Below are positions 2,728 to 34,274 of a stretch of DNA of 35,507 nucleotides, one piece after another. The translations under genes were made by a program, and so were the position numbers. Source of the stretch: Pseudanabaena biceps PCC 7429 (GTDB taxonomy: Bacteria; Cyanobacteriota; Cyanobacteriia; Pseudanabaenales; Pseudanabaenaceae); contig NZ_ALWB01000021.1 in NCBI RefSeq assembly GCF_000332215.1, forward strand, positions 1 through 35,507. The letters run 5' to 3'. The notes under the pieces were generated by a model. It was not told where the DNA came from and did no database searches. It worked only from the letters and a program-made list of their open reading frames with translations. The stretch's first letter is position 1. Each line of letters begins with the position of its first letter.

Positions 2728-3183
2728 TTAGTCCCAAAAATCAATATTGACAATAGAGTCAGTATCTTTCTCAAACTCCCATTCGTTAGGGAAAGTAAAA
2801 CCTTTTGACTGATATTCTTTGCGAGTATGCTTTAAAGCAAATCGCCAAGCATCACTAAAATGTCTATCCCAATAGCTTTTGAGACTGGGATAGTTATTAA
2901 GTAATACCTCAATCTGTAAGCGCTGCTCTCGGATAGTATTTTCCCAGCCATTAAAACAGTCAGGCATATTTACATACATCCGTTTGAGCAAATGAGCCAA
3001 TAAAGTCGCAAGACGACTTTCTAACTCCTTTCTTTGCGATCGCCCCAAGTCCTCAATTTCCTCTATCAAATTTTCAAGGTCGAGATTCTCAAAATCTCTG
3101 TTTTTTAACTTAGCTATAGTTTCCTGAATCCAAAGTAGGTAATCAGATTCATATAAGGGTTTTCTTGCAACTATCTGAGTCAT
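2728..3183 (-). CDS. DUF29 family protein (copy 2)
   Basis: A 151-residue paralogue of the 983-1432 product. The N-terminal third is close to identical (LYESDYLLW.QETIAKLK.RDF, then LENLIEEIEDLGRS), while the C-terminal half diverges apart from the NGWE.TIREQR motif. An AAGGAG lies about ten bases upstream of the ATG in a region that matches the leader of copy 1. Function unknown, as for the whole family. Confidence 0.88.
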   Translation of the reverse strand: MTQIVARKPLYESDYLLWIQETIAKLKNRDFENLDLENLIEEIEDLGRSQRKELESRLATLLAHLLKRMYVNMPDCFNGWENTIREQRLQIEVLLNNYPSLKSYWDRHFSDAWRFALKHTRKEYQSKGFTFPNEWEFEKDTDSIVNIDFWD

Positions 3184-3253
3184 TGATTTGTAACTCCTTT
3201 AATAAATCCAACACTAGCATTATCCTGCATAAGATAATTATAGCGATCGCTTT

Positions 3254-3359
3254 TACAGCAATTATCGATCAAACGAACCACAAGAAGATTTTTGAAAGCT
3301 TTGCAAAGCAAAGCTTTCAAAAATCTTCTTGGTTTGGGTTTGAGTGCAAAGCGCTTTTA
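3254..3359. mobile_element. MITE-like palindromic element, family A copy 1
   Basis: An element of about 105 bp with a perfect 23-bp inverted repeat at its centre (arms 3282-3304 and 3308-3330, loop AAA). It is flanked on one side by TACAGCAATTATCGATC and on the other by GGTTTGGGTTTGAG and GCAAAGCGC. The reverse complement of nearly the whole unit recurs at 11017-11124. It has no coding capacity and starts just after a HIP1 site that ends the duplicated DUF29 leader. Confidence 0.75.
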
Positions 3360-6645: not shown

Positions 6646-6680
6646 TAGGTATGGGTGGCGTTTCACGCCGCCCATACCTA
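6646..6680. terminator. Hairpin downstream of the HD-GYP gene
   Basis: TAGGTATGGGTGGCG pairs with CGCCGCCCATACCTA across the loop TTTCA, a 15-bp stem with one G-T type mismatch. It lies 1 base past the HD-GYP stop codon, in the right place for a transcription end. Confidence 0.6.
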
Positions 6681-6681
6681 C

Positions 6682-8340
6682 CTATTTAGTACCAACATTC
6701 GCTAAGGTTACCCTATACCCAGGAATCTTATCCTCATCGACTTCATCGATCTGATCGGGATCGAGGTACTCATTGGCATAGCGTAAATACACTTTCTCGC
6801 TGACAAATAGATCGAACAGATCGGGGTCGATATGATTTTCCAACTTCATCTTACCGAGAATTTGGAGGCATTCAGTTAAAGTTTTACCCTGTTTATAGGG
6901 GCGATCTTTAGCGCTGAGGGCTTCAAAAATATCAGCAATTCCCATCATCCTTGCAGGCAGAGACATTTGCTCGCGCGTTAAGCCTCGCGGATAGCCTTTC
7001 CCATCCATTCTCTCATGGTGACCGCCAGCATATTCTGGTACGCGACGAAGATTGCGAGGATAGGGTAATTGTTCGAGCATTTCGATCGTAACCACAATAT
7101 GATCATTGATAATTTTGCGCTCTTCGGCAGTAAGGGTTCCCCTAGAAATATTGAGGTTGTATAGTTCGTTATCAGTCAAGAAATTAGTTTCGACACCCAT
7201 CGGATCGATCCATCGATAGGTCGCAATGATTTGCAGCCTTTCTTTATATTCATTACTCATGAATTCGCCACCAACATTACAAATGCGAAGAAAATCTTGG
7301 TCGCTAGAATATTGAGCGAGTTTTTGCTTAAAAGTCTCTTCTAGGGCAGGAATAATGCTGAGATTGCCTGACTCGATCGCCGCAATTTTTTGATTAAGAA
7401 AACTAATTTCGGCATCGCGTTTGAGGACTTCAAAGCGAGTATTAATTAAGTGAATGCGATCAAATATTGTTTCGAGTTTAGTTGCTTTATCGATTACATG
7501 TACTGGCGTAGTTACTTTACCGCAGTCATGGAGCAGCCCTGCAATTTTTAGCTCGTATCTTTCCTCATCATCCAAACGGAAATTTTTGAAAATGCCATAA
7601 TCTGCCTTACAGGCAGCATCGGCAATCATCATGGTCAAGGTGGGGACGCGACGGCAGTGAGCGCCGTTGTAAGGCGATTTTTTGTCGATCGCCTCAGACA
7701 TGAGATTAATAAACGATTCAAATAACTCGCGAAATTGACCGATTAGTTTGTTATTGGTTAAGGCGATCGCGGCTTGGGATGCTAAGGATTCGCCAATGCG
7801 CTGGGCAATCTTAGAAAATTCAATAATTTGACGATCATCTCCCTTAGCGTTAATCAACTGCAAAACGCCAATCAATTCATTTTCATGATTGAGCATTGGC
7901 AAGGTCAAAAACGACTGCGATCGATAGCCCGTCTTGGTATCAAAAGCTCTAGTCCCCGCAAAGTCGAAACCCTTGGCAGTATAGGCATCAGGAATATTAA
8001 TCGTTTTTTTGTACAAAGCGGCATGGGCTGCCACCATCGTGTTATTGGGATTACCATCCGCGTCGTAGAGAGGCAAGGGATCGAAAGGAATCGGCTCTCC
8101 GAGTTGTGCGCCCATCATGATACCAAGAGAATCATTCATGATGATTTCAAATTGAAGATGCCGTTTGTCCTCCGTGGCTAGATATAGCGTTCCACCATCG
8201 GCGTTTAAGATAGCCTTTGCCCCTTTTAAGATCATTTCTAGCAACTTGGGCGTATTTTTTTCGGTCGAGAGTGCTATACCGATCTCATTTAACTTTTCGA
8301 TTAGTTCAAAGGATTCCGTTTTTGTTTCGCCCATATCCAT
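6682..8340 (-). CDS. GAF and HD-GYP domain phosphodiesterase
   Basis: This 552-residue cytoplasmic protein has an N-terminal GAF domain (about residues 15-200, including ADGGTLYL and the GVLQLINAK strand) and a C-terminal HD-GYP domain. The metal-binding dyad is H271-D272 in GLLHDCGK. The second signature HHERMDGKGYPRGL and the following helix MSLPARMMGIADIFEALSA (in two parts) are intact. HD-GYP proteins hydrolyse cyclic di-GMP. An insertion of about 100 residues separates the HD dyad from the HHE motif, as in some cyanobacterial relatives. The GAF domain probably senses a small ligand. No GGDEF or effector partner is nearby. All expected catalytic motifs are present, so it is probably active. 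Confidence 0.9.
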   Translation of the reverse strand: MDMGETKTESFELIEKLNEIGIALSTEKNTPKLLEMILKGAKAILNADGGTLYLATEDKRHLQFEIIMNDSLGIMMGAQLGEPIPFDPLPLYDADGNPNNTMVAAHAALYKKTINIPDAYTAKGFDFAGTRAFDTKTGYRSQSFLTLPMLNHENELIGVLQLINAKGDDRQIIEFSKIAQRIGESLASQAAIALTNNKLIGQFRELFESFINLMSEAIDKKSPYNGAHCRRVPTLTMMIADAACKADYGIFKNFRLDDEERYELKIAGLLHDCGKVTTPVHVIDKATKLETIFDRIHLINTRFEVLKRDAEISFLNQKIAAIESGNLSIIPALEETFKQKLAQYSSDQDFLRICNVGGEFMSNEYKERLQIIATYRWIDPMGVETNFLTDNELYNLNISRGTLTAEERKIINDHIVVTIEMLEQLPYPRNLRRVPEYAGGHHERMDGKGYPRGLTREQMSLPARMMGIADIFEALSAKDRPYKQGKTLTECLQILGKMKLENHIDPDLFDLFVSEKVYLRYANEYLDPDQIDEVDEDKIPGYRVTLANVGTK

Positions 8341-10002: not shown

Positions 10003-10716
10003 ATGTCTCAACCTTCGGAAACTGATATCCAGCAGATTTTCGATCGCATTGCCCCATTGTACGATCGCTTTAACGATCTTCTGAGCTTAGGACAGCATCG
10101 CGTTTGGAAAAAGATGGCTCTGCGCTGGTGCGAACCGCGACAGGGGGAAAAATGGCTCGATCTTTGCTGTGGTTCTGGGGACATGACGACCTTGCTAGCT
10201 CAACTAGTTGCGCCAAGGGGGCAGGCGATCGGCGTAGATTTTTCTAAACAACTATTAGCGATCGCCGCCGATAAAGCTAATAACTACGCGCCCAAAATTC
10301 AAAAATGTCTCACATGGCAAGAAGGGAATGTTTTGGAGCTCCCCTTTAGCGATAATACCTTTGACGGAGCCACCCTCGCCTATGGGTTACGAAATGTGAC
10401 AAATATTCCTCAATGTTTAGCCGAATTGCACCGCGTTCTCAAACAGGGAGCAAAAGCAGCCATCTTAGACTTTCATCGCCCTAGCGATCGCCTAATGCAA
10501 AGTTTTCAAGATTTTTACTTGGAGCGAGTGGTCGTACCCATGGCTGACCGATTTGCGATGACCGAGGAATATGCCTATATTGCCCCAAGTTTAGCGAGGT
10601 TTCCCATCGGTACTGAGCAGGTAAAATTAGCCAAAGCCGCAGGATTTATGCAGGCAACCCACTATGCGATCGCCAATGGCATGATGGGAGTATTAGTTTT
10701 GCAGAAAAAGCTTTAG
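10003..10716 (+). CDS. menG: Demethylphylloquinone/UbiE-type methyltransferase
   Basis: A 237-residue SAM-dependent methyltransferase of the UbiE/MenG family. The N-terminal IFDRIAPLYDRFNDLLSLGQHRVWKK is diagnostic, followed by the SAM motif I WLDLCCGSGDMT at about 52-63, post-I GVDFSKQLL, and LPFSDNTFDGATLAYGLRNV. In cyanobacteria this enzyme performs the final ring methylation of phylloquinone, the secondary acceptor in photosystem I; plastoquinone-related substrates are also possible for the family. Length is typical. The stop codon (10714-10716) lies within the left arm of a 27-bp perfect inverted repeat. It is transcribed divergently from the membrane-protein gene to the left. Confidence 0.93.
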   Translation: MSQPSETDIQQIFDRIAPLYDRFNDLLSLGQHRVWKKMALRWCEPRQGEKWLDLCCGSGDMTTLLAQLVAPRGQAIGVDFSKQLLAIAADKANNYAPKIQKCLTWQEGNVLELPFSDNTFDGATLAYGLRNVTNIPQCLAELHRVLKQGAKAAILDFHRPSDRLMQSFQDFYLERVVVPMADRFAMTEEYAYIAPSLARFPIGTEQVKLAKAAGFMQATHYAIANGMMGVLVLQKKL

Positions 10717-10768
10717 TAATTTTAAGGATGGGCGGCGCGAAGCGCCGCCCATCCTTAAAATTACTAAA
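10712..10768. terminator. 27-bp perfect hairpin over the menG stop codon
   Basis: Arms 10712-10738 and 10742-10768 are exact reverse complements with a three-base loop GAA. The stem contains GGATGGGCGGCGC at its top and A/T-rich ends, so it could act as a terminator in either direction. The menG stop TAG is part of the left arm. Confidence 0.75.
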
Positions 10769-10900
10769 ATTCGATCAATTTGTATTTTTTTGCGGTTTAC
10801 AGTCTATAGATTTATTTGCTTGGTTACAATTGATGAAGTACATACTGCCCAATAAACGAGCATATACTCTGGTTTTGATTTTTAACCCTGCCGAACTACT

Positions 10901-11004
10901 TAAGTAAGTGGGCTTAATTAAATATAAAACCCTAAAACCTGCGGCGCAAGCTGCGCGTACACCGCAGGTTTTAGCAATGGATTTTAATTGTGCTGAGGTA
11001 CTTA
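10901..11004. mobile_element. MITE-like element, family B copy 1
   Basis: About 104 bp starting TAAGTAAGTGGGCTTAATTA and ending TTTTAATTGTGCTGAGGTAC, with imperfect terminal inverted repeats. The centre holds CCTAAAACCTGCGG pairing with CCGCAGGTTTTAG. Very close to 24081-24186 and related to 13759-13857. Non-coding. Together with the adjacent family A copy it fills most of the menG-rodA gap. Confidence 0.75.
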
Positions 11005-11016
11005 TTTAAATGCCAA

Positions 11017-11124
11017 TTTACAGCGCTTTGCGCTCAAACCCAAACAAGAAGATTTTTGAAAGCTTTGCGAAGCAAAGCTTTCAAAAATCTTCTCGTGGTT
11101 CGTTTGATCGATAATTGCTGTAAG
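11017..11124. mobile_element. MITE-like palindromic element, family A copy 2
   Basis: The reverse complement of the 3254-3359 unit, with core arms 11047-11068 and 11072-11093 (22 bp, loop GAA). Its ends read TTTACAGC and GCTGTAA, a clear terminal inverted repeat. The flanks TTTAAATGCCAA (about 11005-11016) and TTTTAAATGCCAA (about 11145-11157) are near-direct repeats, and TAAGTACCAATTTT is tandemly duplicated just right of the element. Confidence 0.75.
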
Positions 11125-11187
11125 TACCAATTTTAAGTACCAATTTTAAATGCCAAGTCAAACTTCAATGCTGAATTATCTGAATTT

Positions 11188-12539: not shown

Positions 12540-12594
12540 AAAACTCAAAAGGTGAGTGGCTATGCTTTGCATAGCCACTCACCTTTTGAGTTTT
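12540..12594. terminator. 26-bp perfect hairpin downstream of rodA
   Basis: AAACTCAAAAGGTGAGTGG plus CTATGC forms the left arm (12541-12565), pairing exactly with 12569-12593 around a TTT loop; bases 12540 and 12594 also pair. The rest of the rodA-mdh gap (12445-12758) holds only A/T-rich sequence and a possible TATACT -10 element at 12711-12716 ahead of mdh. Confidence 0.65.
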
Positions 12595-19723: not shown

Positions 19724-19766
19724 ATACCAAAGCTGAAAATGGCTACGCCATTTTCAGCTTTGGTAT
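19724..19766. terminator. 20-bp hairpin, TAC loop, after the WD40 gene
   Basis: ATACCAAAGCTGAAAATGGC pairs exactly with its reverse complement at 19747-19766 across the loop TAC. It lies 7 bases after the stop codon. Confidence 0.65.
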
Positions 19767-19767
19767 A

Positions 19768-19820
19768 AAGCCCAAAGGATAAGTGGCGGCGCTCCGCGCC
19801 GCTACTTATCTTTTGGGCTT
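19768..19820. terminator. 25-bp hairpin, TCC loop, between convergent genes
   Basis: Arms 19768-19792 and 19796-19820 pair with two C-to-T differences, each still allowing G-U pairing in the rightward transcript. The loop is TCC. A further small palindrome GAGCGC-TTT-GCGCTC follows at about 19827-19841. The double structure separates the convergent WD40 and beta-helix genes. Confidence 0.6.
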
Positions 19821-21733: not shown

Positions 21734-21778
21734 GTACAAAAGGTAAGGCGGCGCTTTGCGCCGCCTTACCTTTTGTAC
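21734..21778. terminator. 21-bp perfect hairpin after the sugar permease gene
   Basis: GTACAAAAGGTAAGGCGG plus CGC pairs exactly with 21758-21778 across a TTT loop. It ends 6 bases beyond the permease stop codon and lies between it and the beta-helix gene on the same strand. The 12-bp unit AAATATTAAATG is tandemly repeated three times just left of it (about 21631-21665). Confidence 0.65.
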
Positions 21779-22675: not shown

Positions 22676-22712
22676 CTAGAAAAGAGCCGTGCTTTGCGCA
22701 GCTCTTTTCTAG
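22676..22712. terminator. 17-bp hairpin, TTT loop, over the beta-lactamase stop codon
   Basis: CTAGAAAAGAGCCGTGC faces GCGCAGCTCTTTTCTAG across TTT with two mismatches near the apex. The stop codon of the class D beta-lactamase (complement of 22709-22711) is within the right arm. Confidence 0.6.
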
Positions 22713-23566
22713 TCAACGAGTTGTAAATCTCTCAAGGTATCAAATAAAATCTTTTTGCGAATGGAGATCATGTCAAACTTTGGATCTTGATTTGTCATAT
22801 TCAAAGCATAGAAATAGACATTATTATCTCTTTCTACATAACCGACATACCAACCAATATTTTGCAATCCATCAACATTACTGCCCCAGCCAGTCTTACC
22901 TCGAAGGGTGTAATTTTCTTGACGCTCGATAACCATGATGTCCTTAACTGTATTGATTACCGCAGGAGAGAAGGGTAAATCGCCTTTGTATAGTTTGACT
23001 AAAAACTTAATCTGCTCCTCAGGCGAAATCCTTAGTTTACCTTTCAACCAAAAAGTATCAATTTTATCTTCTATATTTTGATTACCGTAGCCAGCAGCTT
23101 CAATATACTTCGCCATCCTTTCCTTGCCAGCGCGCCGCGCTAAGTCTTGATAAAACCAAACTACCGATCGCTTAAAAGCAGTTCGCATGGTTTGGTCTTG
23201 ATTCCAATCGGGAAAGGATTGATTGCTAACTCCATTCCAAGGAATTACGGTATTTTCATCAGCGATCGCCTTGGTCTCAAGGGCAACCAGTGAATTAAAA
23301 ATTTTAAAGGTTGAGGCAGGAATATATCGCTTTTGACAGTGGATCGAGTTGTAGCGAATATAGCGATCGCGTTTTAGGTCGTATAAAACAAAACAACCCT
23401 CAGATTTTGCTTCCTGTAAGTTTTGAGCTAAATGACGCGAAAATTGGGATTGAAAGTCTAGATTTGTTTTGGGGATGCTGGGGAGCCGATCTTGAGAGAA
23501 TGCTGACGGAGCGATCGCCAAAGAAATACACAATAGAAATAATAGAGAATAAATAGTTTCAAACAT
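22709..23566 (-). CDS. Class D (OXA-like) beta-lactamase
   Basis: A 285-residue exported serine beta-lactamase. A signal peptide (MFETIYSLLFLLCISLAIAP, cleavage near AFSQ) is followed by all class D motifs: S85-T-F-K88 with the nucleophile and the lysine that is carbamylated in the family, S134-V-V136 (SxV), Y160-G-N162, W173 in FWLKGKLRISPEEQ, and K224-T-G226. These fit an active enzyme acylated by penicillins; the spectrum cannot be read from sequence. The ATG lies beside a tandem duplication of about 15 bp (GAAACCCATGT), so an alternative upstream ATG exists out of frame. Its position between two sugar-permease genes is odd. Base composition is not obviously foreign. Confidence 0.92.
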   Translation of the reverse strand: MFETIYSLLFLLCISLAIAPSAFSQDRLPSIPKTNLDFQSQFSRHLAQNLQEAKSEGCFVLYDLKRDRYIRYNSIHCQKRYIPASTFKIFNSLVALETKAIADENTVIPWNGVSNQSFPDWNQDQTMRTAFKRSVVWFYQDLARRAGKERMAKYIEAAGYGNQNIEDKIDTFWLKGKLRISPEEQIKFLVKLYKGDLPFSPAVINTVKDIMVIERQENYTLRGKTGWGSNVDGLQNIGWYVGYVERDNNVYFYALNMTNQDPKFDMISIRKKILFDTLRDLQLVD

Positions 23567-23960: not shown

Positions 23961-23995
23961 CAAGTTAAGAAATGGCTACGCCATTTCTTAACTTG
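23961..23995. terminator. 16-bp perfect hairpin, TAC loop
   Basis: CAAGTTAAGAAATGGC and its exact reverse complement surround TAC. It is preceded by three tandem copies of TTTCTAATAT (about 23931-23959). The rest of the 23900-24182 gap is mostly a family B element. Confidence 0.6.
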
Positions 23996-29144: not shown

Positions 29145-29183
29145 CTCAAATAAAAGCCCTGCTTTGCAGGGCTTTTATTTGAG
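29145..29183. terminator. 18-bp perfect bidirectional hairpin between gcvP and the methylase remnant
   Basis: CTCAAATAAAAGCCCTGC and its exact reverse complement flank a TTT loop. The arms end in A-rich and T-rich tracts, so each strand gives a stem with a following U-run. It lies 1 base after the gcvP stop and contains the last codons and TAA stop of the convergent methylase remnant. Confidence 0.8.
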
Positions 29184-30845
29184 AATTACCACTTCACCAC
29201 GCTCATTCGCCGCATTAAACTCTTCCCCAAAATCACAGGTCGAGATATCGCCTAGCTGAATATTCTGCTCAAAATTTGGCAAATAGACGTAGATTTCTAG
29301 CGATCGCAAACAGAGGGAAAGGCGCGTGATTTCAATAGATTCTTCCACAACATCACAGCCAAATAGATTATGTTGCAGAATATGGGCGATCGTCTCCGCA
29401 GGCGTTGTATAGGCGATCGATTCGACATCATTGGTAAACTTGGTTAATAAATGATAGATGCGCTCATGTTCAGAAAGTAAAAACTCTAAGGCAGTGACCA
29501 GAAATACCCCAGCCCCACACTTGGGATGCAAAACTTTAACCTTTAATAAACGCTCTTGATATTCTTGGCAATAGGCTAGAGTATCTTGAGTGAATCGGCG
29601 ATCGCCATCACGAGGAATCTTGGATATAGATAGGTGCTGTTTCAAAACCCGAATTACCGATTCACTTTGCAAAATCGCTTTACAAGGCAATTTGGGAATG
29701 CGGCGTTTACTGAGATTGCTCAGATCTTTACGATATTGTGATAATTCCTTGATCGATTCATCAAAAAGGCAGGTAAGGATATGACGGGTGATATCTTCGC
29801 AAAAGTCAAAACGGGTAATCTCTTTAATCTGACGGCATAATTCATCCCCAACAAATAAAGCCCGATCTAGAATGGGATCTCTCGCGAATAGCCCCGATGG
29901 ATAAGCATTGATCGGCATGGAATAATTAGCATTACCATTTTGTACCCAACCAAATATTGCTTTATAGTTTTCCCAAATTGGTTGCTCGATATAGGGATTT
30001 ACAAATTCGTAGGCATCCTTAATTAAATTGGCGGGTAATAGCTGCCGGTCTTCGCAGTAAGCGATAAATAAAATGCGGTTTAATAATTTTTGGGCTTGAT
30101 AAATGGCGATCGCGATCGCATCTTCCGCCTTAATCTGGAGATTTGTTTGTACAGACTGTGAAGGATGGGCTAACAATTGCAAACGATAGCGGAAATCCTT
30201 AATTAGCTGACTGCGAATTTTGTAGTAGTGACTGTAAAAATTTTTGAGAAATTCCGATTCGAGTTGGTGTGACTCCTCTAGTAAATGGGTAGTCCGCGAT
30301 CGTTCTTCACTATTAGCAATTCCCCTGAGTAAAGTTCGTCGTGACAGCAAAAAATAAAAAGCCTTGAACTGATCTAAATCCGCCAAAGACTCCCAAGAAA
30401 ATCGCTGACAGAACAAACTCGATACGTCACGGTGGTAAAGACAAATTTCTCGATAATCTAAAACAATCAGCCACTCAGTTGTTTCATACTCCGGTTCGGG
30501 CTTAACGATTGCTCCCTCTTCCGCAGTATTAACCCTAACTTCGGCAATTACATTGACTGAGGTTTCGGTAAAAAAACCAAGGGCAGGATTGGGGTGTAAT
30601 TCTAGCTCCCACGCACCACCACTGGTCTCAAAAGGAGACTTATATCCTAAAATATCAACAAAAATATCATGCAAAAATTGCGCTTCAGCAATTAAATTTG
30701 ATGGTTCCCCATCACTGGCAAAATACAGCCACTTCTGGACTATCTGAAAACGTTCTCCCAAATCTCTTGGGAAACCAAAAGAACTAATTCGCTTTGCGAG
30801 AGGTTTCGGATGAAACAGTGAGTAGTAAGGCGATCGCTGATTCAT
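29175..30845 (-). CDS. Truncated Eco57I/type IIG-like N6-DNA methylase remnant
   Basis: A 556-residue protein whose N-terminal 400 residues resemble the nuclease/helical part of Eco57I-like restriction-methylation proteins (FLHDIFVDILGYKSPFE, CEDRQLLP). Residues about 440-550 start an N6-adenine methylase domain: VLHPKCGAGVFLVTALEFLL is motif I but with the leading aspartate changed to histidine (usual DPxCGSG), and HNLFGCDVVEESIEITRLSL is motif II. The protein ends GEVVILK just where FDVVIGNPPY would follow, so the catalytic NPPY motif and the target-recognition domain are missing. The stop lies inside a hairpin shared with gcvP's end. It overlaps DUF3007 by ATGA (30842-30845). Methylation activity is very unlikely. 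Confidence 0.68.
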   Translation of the reverse strand: MNQRSPYYSLFHPKPLAKRISSFGFPRDLGERFQIVQKWLYFASDGEPSNLIAEAQFLHDIFVDILGYKSPFETSGGAWELELHPNPALGFFTETSVNVIAEVRVNTAEEGAIVKPEPEYETTEWLIVLDYREICLYHRDVSSLFCQRFSWESLADLDQFKAFYFLLSRRTLLRGIANSEERSRTTHLLEESHQLESEFLKNFYSHYYKIRSQLIKDFRYRLQLLAHPSQSVQTNLQIKAEDAIAIAIYQAQKLLNRILFIAYCEDRQLLPANLIKDAYEFVNPYIEQPIWENYKAIFGWVQNGNANYSMPINAYPSGLFARDPILDRALFVGDELCRQIKEITRFDFCEDITRHILTCLFDESIKELSQYRKDLSNLSKRRIPKLPCKAILQSESVIRVLKQHLSISKIPRDGDRRFTQDTLAYCQEYQERLLKVKVLHPKCGAGVFLVTALEFLLSEHERIYHLLTKFTNDVESIAYTTPAETIAHILQHNLFGCDVVEESIEITRLSLCLRSLEIYVYLPNFEQNIQLGDISTCDFGEEFNAANERGEVVILK

Positions 30846-34061: not shown

Positions 34062-34210
34062 TAACGTGAGTTGGGGATAATTTGAAACTGGCTTAGAGAA
34101 AGGGTTTGCTTAGCAAACCCTTTCTCTAAGCCCAAAAATAAAAGCCTTGCTACGCAAGGCTTTTATTTTTGGGCTTTTAAAATTTGCCAGCTTAACCCGA
34201 ACTGACGTTA
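34062..34210. mobile_element. MITE-like element, family C copy 1, with two internal hairpins
   Basis: About 149 bp with termini TAACGTGAGTTGGGG and the inverted AACCCGAACTGACGTTA. Inside are two hairpins sharing bases: arms 34092-34109/34113-34130 (loop TTA) and 34128-34150/34154-34176 (loop TAC). The right half recurs inverted at 35445-35507. No coding capacity. It directly follows the rpsJ terminator's T-run. Confidence 0.7.
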
Positions 34211-34219
34211 GGATAAATC

Positions 34220-34274
34220 AAACCCCAAGAATTGATTGGCGGCACTTCGCGCCGCCAATCAATTCTTGGGGTTT
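34220..34274. terminator. 24-bp perfect hairpin between rpsJ and DUF1186
   Basis: AAACCCCAAGAATTGATTGG plus CGGC pairs exactly with 34251-34274 across the loop ACTTCGC. It lies between family C copy 1 and the convergent DUF1186 gene. The rest of the 33919-34359 gap holds no visible gene. Confidence 0.6.

Follow-up and report, generated by a model that had tools for sequence, protein, structure and literature searches.

Why do so many genes in one stretch of the genome of Pseudanabaena biceps, a cyanobacterium from freshwater, end in long, near-perfect palindromes that have different arms and almost the same tip? The question is raised by the inverted repeat at 10712-10768 and its counterparts in the window, i.e. 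the whole 35,507-nt stretch of DNA that was analyzed (42% GC), which lies within contig C21 of a 5.47-Mb draft genome. In P. biceps and its close relatives near-perfect hairpins occur in thousands, mostly at gene ends, and nearly all of them carry the same tip. We consider it likely that these palindromes are DNA hairpins that are repeatedly rebuilt and extended by template switching during replication.

The analysis used a sample of this genome that consisted of 60 stretches of 20 kb each plus the window (1.24 Mb, 23% of the genome). Within this sample, an inverted repeat was scored as a palindrome if it was perfect, its arms measured 12 bp or more and its loop 10 bases or fewer, and the null for the number of palindromes was an order-1 (dinucleotide) Markov simulation of the same 1.24 Mb. 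Genes for the analysis of intergenic gaps were called with a simple codon-usage script. The comparison collection comprised 22 further genomes of the same genus, and the nearest named relative in the genome collection was Pseudanabaena sp. UWO311 (GcvP 86% identical). Orthologous loci were compared between P. biceps and strain G004 (~95% identical), between G022 and both G012 and G005, between G008 and G018, and between G019 and G016.

Palindromes of the window

All inverted repeats that the initial annotation had listed for the window exist, and only small corrections to coordinates and perfection were required. The palindrome at 10712-10768 is perfect, with 27-bp arms and the apex GC-GAA-GC. 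It shares its inner 16 bp with a dispersed family, and its left outer arm takes in the last five bases (TTTAG, with the stop codon) of a ubiE-like gene. Further perfect palindromes are located 3' of an ftsW/rodA-like gene (12540-12594; 26-bp arms, GC-TTT-GC), just past the stop of a WD40 gene (19724-19766; 20-bp arms, GC-TAC-GC), after a sugar-permease gene (21734-21778; 21-bp arms, GC-TTT-GC) and between the convergent stop codons of gcvP and gene 29175-30845 (29145-29183; 18-bp arms, GC-TTT-GC), as well as at 23961-23995 (16-bp arms, GC-TAC-GC; family ...AAGAAATGGC). The palindrome at 19768-19820 (25-bp arms, GC-TCC-GC), which stands in tandem with the one at 19724-19766, is near-perfect (92% complementary), and the imperfect palindrome at 22676-22712 (17 bp with two mismatches, 88%; GC-TTT-GC) overlaps the stop codon of gene 22709-23566 on the minus strand. 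The predicted protein of this gene contains STFK and KTG motifs and looks like a class D beta-lactamase-type protein. Two palindromes were additional to those listed earlier: a perfect one at 34220-34274 (24-bp arms, 7-base loop ACTTCGC) and one at 6646-6680 (16-bp arms with one mismatch, apex GT-TTC-AC) just outside the stop of gene 6682-8340 on the minus strand.

The window also contains three families of MITE-like units (34062-34210; 10893-11013; 3253-3355 and 11017-11126), which recur many times in the sister strain G004. The palindrome at 3281-3331 (previously placed at 3282-3330; 24-bp arms, GC-AAA-GC) is the core of a unit of ~105 bp, and the one at 11047-11093 (22-bp arms, GC-GAA-GC), whose arms are those of 3281-3331, is the core of a second copy. 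This 105-bp unit has apparent short terminal inverted repeats (TTACAGC...GCTGTAA) in G004. The unit at 34062-34210 (~150 bp) holds two perfect palindromes, one at 34090-34132 (previously 34092-34130; 21-bp arms, apex GC-TTA-GC), which strictly has a 1-base loop (GCT-T-AGC), and one at 34128-34176 (23-bp arms, GC-TAC-GC). No match to Rfam was obtained anywhere in the window. Genes 983-1432 and 2728-3183 resemble each other (82% identity over a 222-bp stretch), apparently as a result of local duplication.

Abundance and apex of the palindromes

The 1.24-Mb sample contained 630 perfect inverted repeats, compared with one in the Markov simulation. Loops of three bases accounted for 406 of these, and 319 of the triloop palindromes had arms of at least 16 bp. 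Of the 406, 383 had the apex GC-NNN-GC and 397 a C immediately 5' of the loop, whereas GC amounted to only 6% of the dinucleotides in outer arms as well as genome-wide, which is the expected level. When each arm cluster was counted once, with the last two bases left out of the clustering, the GC apex was present in 52 of 72 clusters compared with an expectation of 5.9% (p about 1e-47). The near-constant apex noticed in the window was thus borne out by copies as well as by clusters, and its frequency was far above that expected from base composition.

The GC flanks proved to be nearly fixed as initially described, but the three bases between them were not free and mostly followed the pattern GNA/TNC. 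Counted on the canonical strand, the loops were GTA (137), GAA (76), AAA (59), GCA (41), AAC (29), GGA (27), ATA (15) and a few others, and the loops inside one family typically comprised one GNA triplet and its G-to-A derivative ANA. GNA or TNC loops were present at 281 of 429 GC-apex sites, among which the copies of a family are not independent, versus 474 of 4315 non-palindromic GCNNNGC sites. Loops of the ANA type and loops with complementary ends were also common. A separate group of palindromes has 4-base loops and an apex fixed as either GTGACAAC or GTAGCCAC (12 copies of each within the 1.24 Mb), and lies outside the GC-NNN-GC rule.

Judged by its sequence, the apex is mostly d(GCGNAGC), that of a hyperstable DNA mini-hairpin, in which a GNA loop is closed by C-G on a stem of two or more G-C pairs. 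Such loops form the exceptionally stable, nuclease-resistant DNA mini-hairpins described by Hirao and colleagues (PMC4686876; PMC6479982). The d(GCGNAGC) mini-hairpins of Hirao, Yoshizawa and colleagues, whose sequence is identical to the apex of the Pseudanabaena palindromes, are known in vitro and have been used in aptamers; here they are seen as genomic sequence, and our literature search found no description of d(GCGNAGC) tipping a genome-wide set of palindromes. The role considered for the apex rests on the published in vitro work, since the available folding parameters give GNA and TNC loops identical energies and do not separate them.

Families and locus-specific arms

Greedy clustering was used to group the arms because single-linkage clustering fused nearly everything. 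Based on the inner 12 bases 28 clusters were obtained, and the nine with at least five members included ~90% of the GC-apex copies. In the window GGCGGCGC is common to the palindromes at 10712, 19768 and 21734, and AATGGC to those at 19724 and 23961. Some families are fixed-sequence units, among them the window's MITE-like elements (105-150 bp). In other families, chiefly the GGCGGCGC family, members have the inner 8-12 bases in common and few conserved bases further out, and pairing runs from 94% to 60% out to ~22 bp at columns in which the majority base reaches ~50%. At the consensus columns of such families, 251 deviations were matched on both sides versus 203 that were one-sided or mismatched.

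The arms had been described as unrelated, and this applies in part: outer arms are often locus-specific, but most copies fall into about nine dispersed families and several arms are shared within the window. The arms thus come partway to a few ordinary families, since these nine hold most copies, yet the GC apex recurs across 52 of the 72 arm clusters. Common descent of the families could explain part of the shared apex. The initial view that the palindromes did not arise by copying of one element was therefore too strong, as the dispersed families indicate that element copying also occurs, and its suggestion of templated extension was supported.

Changes at orthologous loci

Comparison of orthologous gene ends revealed loops that had been inverted, arms that had changed in step with each other and arms that mirror the adjacent coding end, and these footprints support a common DNA process with templated arm extension as it had been proposed from the window. 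Loops inverted between strains while the arms remained intact included GTA/TAC, AAC/GTT and AAA/TTT. The 29 directional comparisons comprised 11 with an unchanged loop, eight with an exact inversion, four with an inversion plus a substitution, four with a substitution and two of another kind, and 13 concerted pair changes kept complementarity compared with ~0.3 expected from the one-sided rate; these counts are not all independent, because many loci were compared in both directions and counted twice. One-sided changes (43) outnumbered the concerted ones. Loci that could be compared base by base were few, and the direction of change was clear only where coding sequence was involved.

Closer examination of the window loci in G004 revealed several kinds of difference. 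At 10712-10768 the two strains are set apart by a substitution and a 1-nt indel, each with its match in the opposite arm, and the loop in G004 is TAA. The counterpart of 29145-29183 has the loop TTC and unchanged arms, and that of 21734-21778 has 13-bp arms and the loop GAA, with one arm overlapping the stop codon. The palindrome at 19724-19766 is absent from G004, where the left-flank part ATACCAAA alone is kept.

Arms copied from coding sequence were seen at the 3' end of the permease gene. Its coding end GGAGTCAAAGGATAA (GGTGTC... in G005) is followed by a short tip and then by the reverse complement TTTATCCTTTGA in G008, G005 and G012, and by a decayed, imperfect mirror in G010, while G002 and G013 carry different palindromes, with a tip of this type, at the corresponding position. 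Since the coding end is present in G001, G007 and G014 and the mirror is absent there, the mirror must be the copy. Similarly, the gcvP coding end ATGAATAG is mirrored in G003 and the ubiE coding end CAAAAATAG in G022. In the P. biceps sample 19 arms overlap the 3' end of a CDS (by up to 16 bases) and three overlap a 5' end. The longest palindrome among those checked for overlap with a gene 3' end (L040:234-314) is perfect and has 39-bp arms, one of which lies over the stop codon of a gene.

Position at gene ends and comparison with terminators

A palindrome was present in 68% of the gaps between convergent genes and in 36% each of the tandem and divergent gaps. For gaps of 30-200 bp the corresponding numbers were 44 of 75, 48 of 254 and 3 of 47. 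This placement fits a role as terminators or exclusion from promoters, and many of the hairpins at gene ends are probably bidirectional terminators. It could be argued that they are nothing but ordinary intrinsic, often bidirectional terminators, and that selection for the RNA hairpin maintains the perfection of their stems. The strong accumulation at 3' ends and in convergent gaps agrees with this, as do families that consist of an A-run, a GC stem and a T-run (AAAAGCCTTGC...GCAAGGCTTTT), a number of terminator-like matches twice the shuffled expectation, and the lack of Rho in cyanobacteria (PMC13289151). However, at least one third of the tandem and divergent gaps also hold a site, whole-triplet loop inversion and arms of 26-39 bp that copy coding sequence speak against this explanation, and selection on RNA is not expected to prefer a DNA-stable triloop over tetraloops.

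The RNA-level comparisons pointed in the same direction. Among imperfect palindromes close to tandem-gene 3' ends, 25 G.U and 32 A.C mismatches were counted on the transcript strand, compared with 11 and 2 in the T-tailed hairpins of an E. coli control (p=0.012 for the difference). RNA pairing is not what keeps the arms perfect, since G.U was not favoured over A.C as it is in E. coli terminators, and the proposal of an RNase target or selected RNA structure was not upheld. A general U-tract after the hairpin was absent at tandem gene ends (T ~0.3-0.5 per position), and T-rich 3' arms were common. Relative to transcription 71 loops were GNA and 51 TNC, a bias that was not significant (p=0.085), and unbiased orientation is expected if loops invert often. 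The palindromes thus share their 3'-end position, chiefly between convergent genes, and a GC-rich inner stem with intrinsic bidirectional terminators, but differ from them in the missing wobble bias, weak U-tracts, triloops and very long perfect arms. Overall, we regard it as unlikely that termination under RNA selection accounts for the palindromes.

Mobile elements, gene conversion and artefacts as alternative explanations

Another explanation is that one or a few mobile families of the MITE or REP type were spread by a transposase and that the apex was inherited with them or served as a recognition site. Roughly 90% of the GC-apex copies belong to the nine arm clusters, MITE-like units of 105-150 bp hold some of the palindromes, loci vary in presence and absence, and the genome has one RAYT gene, all of which would be consistent with such a spread. 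REP/REPIN elements, which are associated with RAYT transposases and GTAG or CGTC tags (PMC3733652, PMC3116915), are likewise short, extragenic, high-copy palindromes with short loops and are known in cyanobacteria. In contrast to these, the tags were not enriched at the foot of the 429 GC-apex sites (CTAC near the foot in 20, CGTC in 4), where A-rich 4-mers dominate, and arms measure 12-39 bp versus 5-13 in REP and have locus-specific outer parts. RAYT is missing or weak in several relatives that carry palindromes, and a clear RAYT is missing from G018 among them. RAYT as the general dispersal agent is therefore unlikely, and identity with the REP/RAYT system was rejected because of the missing foot tag and the patchy distribution of the gene in the genus. 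Locus-specific outer arms and copies of flanking genes, partly seen at independent loci, also argue against a purely mobile origin, and transposition does not explain loop inversion and matched arm changes at fixed loci, so we consider this explanation doubtful, though somewhat less so than termination. The cyanobacterial REP-like motif GCGTTA..GCNNNGC..TAACGC was not found in the 1.24-Mb sample. The RAYT gene of P. biceps itself (G000:C7:46963-47415; L099:1354-1953, minus strand) is intact (NCBIfam NF047646, 184.6 bits), and beside it there is no GC-apex palindrome of a main family and none of such length.

Ectopic gene conversion between dispersed copies could swap whole hairpins and thereby mimic concerted change and loop flipping. 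Inner arms are shared by many copies, and donors in flipped orientation exist for such exchange, but concerted changes also affect outer arms that seem to be unique to their locus, as at 10712 in G004, and the mirrors of coding ends are without an obvious donor elsewhere, which makes conversion quite an improbable source. Palindromes are hard to sequence, and loss of hairpin-processing enzymes would let long palindromes accumulate. An assembly artefact or missing hairpin-processing nucleases are nevertheless scarcely credible as the cause, since the same pattern is present in many independent assemblies, including genomes in a single or few contigs. Loss of SbcCD/ExoVII was rejected as a cause because XseA and, usually in two copies per genome, SbcD homologues occur throughout the genus. 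Repeated hairpin elements (RHE) in intergenic DNA have also been described from sponge mitochondria (PMC2800124); the likeness is one of repeated intergenic hairpins.

Proposed template switching at DNA hairpins

Replication template switching, the reading that we prefer, is known from comparable footprints. Homogenisation of arms and inversion of the spacer have been reported for yeast genes (PMC8604942) and rRNA genes (PMC8794818), in the latter together with stem extension. The authors of the rRNA study proposed that a loop stable in DNA bends the strand and thereby favours intrastrand switching. In their data GNRA tetraloops, which are stable in DNA and RNA, were enriched, 3-base loops were under-represented among such events, and loop inversion combined with a compensatory change was rare (PMC8794818). 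That the dominant triloop of the present set is one noted for its stability in DNA strengthens a reading at the DNA level. The perfect arms and inverted loops of Pseudanabaena would represent a new, extreme form of quasipalindrome correction, a process for which bacterial cases are attributed to van Noort et al. 2003 (as cited in PMC6649704). Matched arm changes, loop inversion, stem extension and perfect arms are common to both, whereas the present set is distinguished by thousands of sites in one bacterial genus and an almost fixed C-(GNA)-G apex.

From the footprints in related genomes the following course can be suggested. A strand at a hairpin would fold back or switch to the other strand during replication, copy one arm, occasionally together with the flank, into the other arm and then return, and this copying would result in identical arms, an inverted loop and longer arms. 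The GC-GNA-GC apex may be kept as the DNA sequence that best snaps into a minimal hairpin, with a benefit in nucleating the fold-back or in protecting the hairpin; alternatively, it may descend from a founder. Hairpins would be tolerated or useful at gene ends, many of them as bidirectional terminators between convergent genes, and ancestral hairpins, some within MITE-like units, would have dispersed into the present families. A bolder version, which we put forward only tentatively, would make GC-GNA-GC a genus-wide self-priming seed: the nascent strand would fold back near a gene end, copy it and grow a perfect palindrome, which would then act as a terminator and be perpetually re-perfected, so that mutation driven by DNA structure, and not selection on RNA, would write the architecture of gene ends.

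Inferences of template switching mostly rest on events that are rare and scattered. Hundreds of sites per Mb with a single apex make it possible to ask directly if the stability of the DNA hairpin tip sets the rate at which palindromes are born and repaired. They also offer a possible DNA-level source of the long, perfect gene-end hairpins of a phylum without Rho, in which termination is poorly understood, and they caution against taking matched changes in the two arms of a hairpin as proof of selected RNA structure.

Distribution in Pseudanabaena and other bacteria

The pattern is genus-wide and nearly absent from the other bacteria tested. Most of the other members of the genus that were sampled had 4-15 palindromes per 20 kb (2.5 in one 8-kb stretch), and 60 of their 71 pooled triloops had the apex GC-NNN-GC. 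Other cyanobacteria (215 kb) and mostly non-cyanobacterial contigs (1.18 Mb) contained 37-47 palindromes per Mb at arm lengths of at least 11 bp, and in these 215 kb and 1.18 Mb loop sizes were spread out and the excess of triloops was absent. In E. coli (250 kb) 21 palindromes were found, mostly with loops of 4-5 bases. Our literature search retrieved no paper on palindromes in Pseudanabaena, and an all-bacteria survey of inverted repeats is silent on these. Isolated triloop palindromes of the C-GNA-G type were observed in three distant cyanobacteria (L178 in G025, L180 in G027 and L183 in G030), and going by these sequences the tip preference may, at low density, be wider than the genus.
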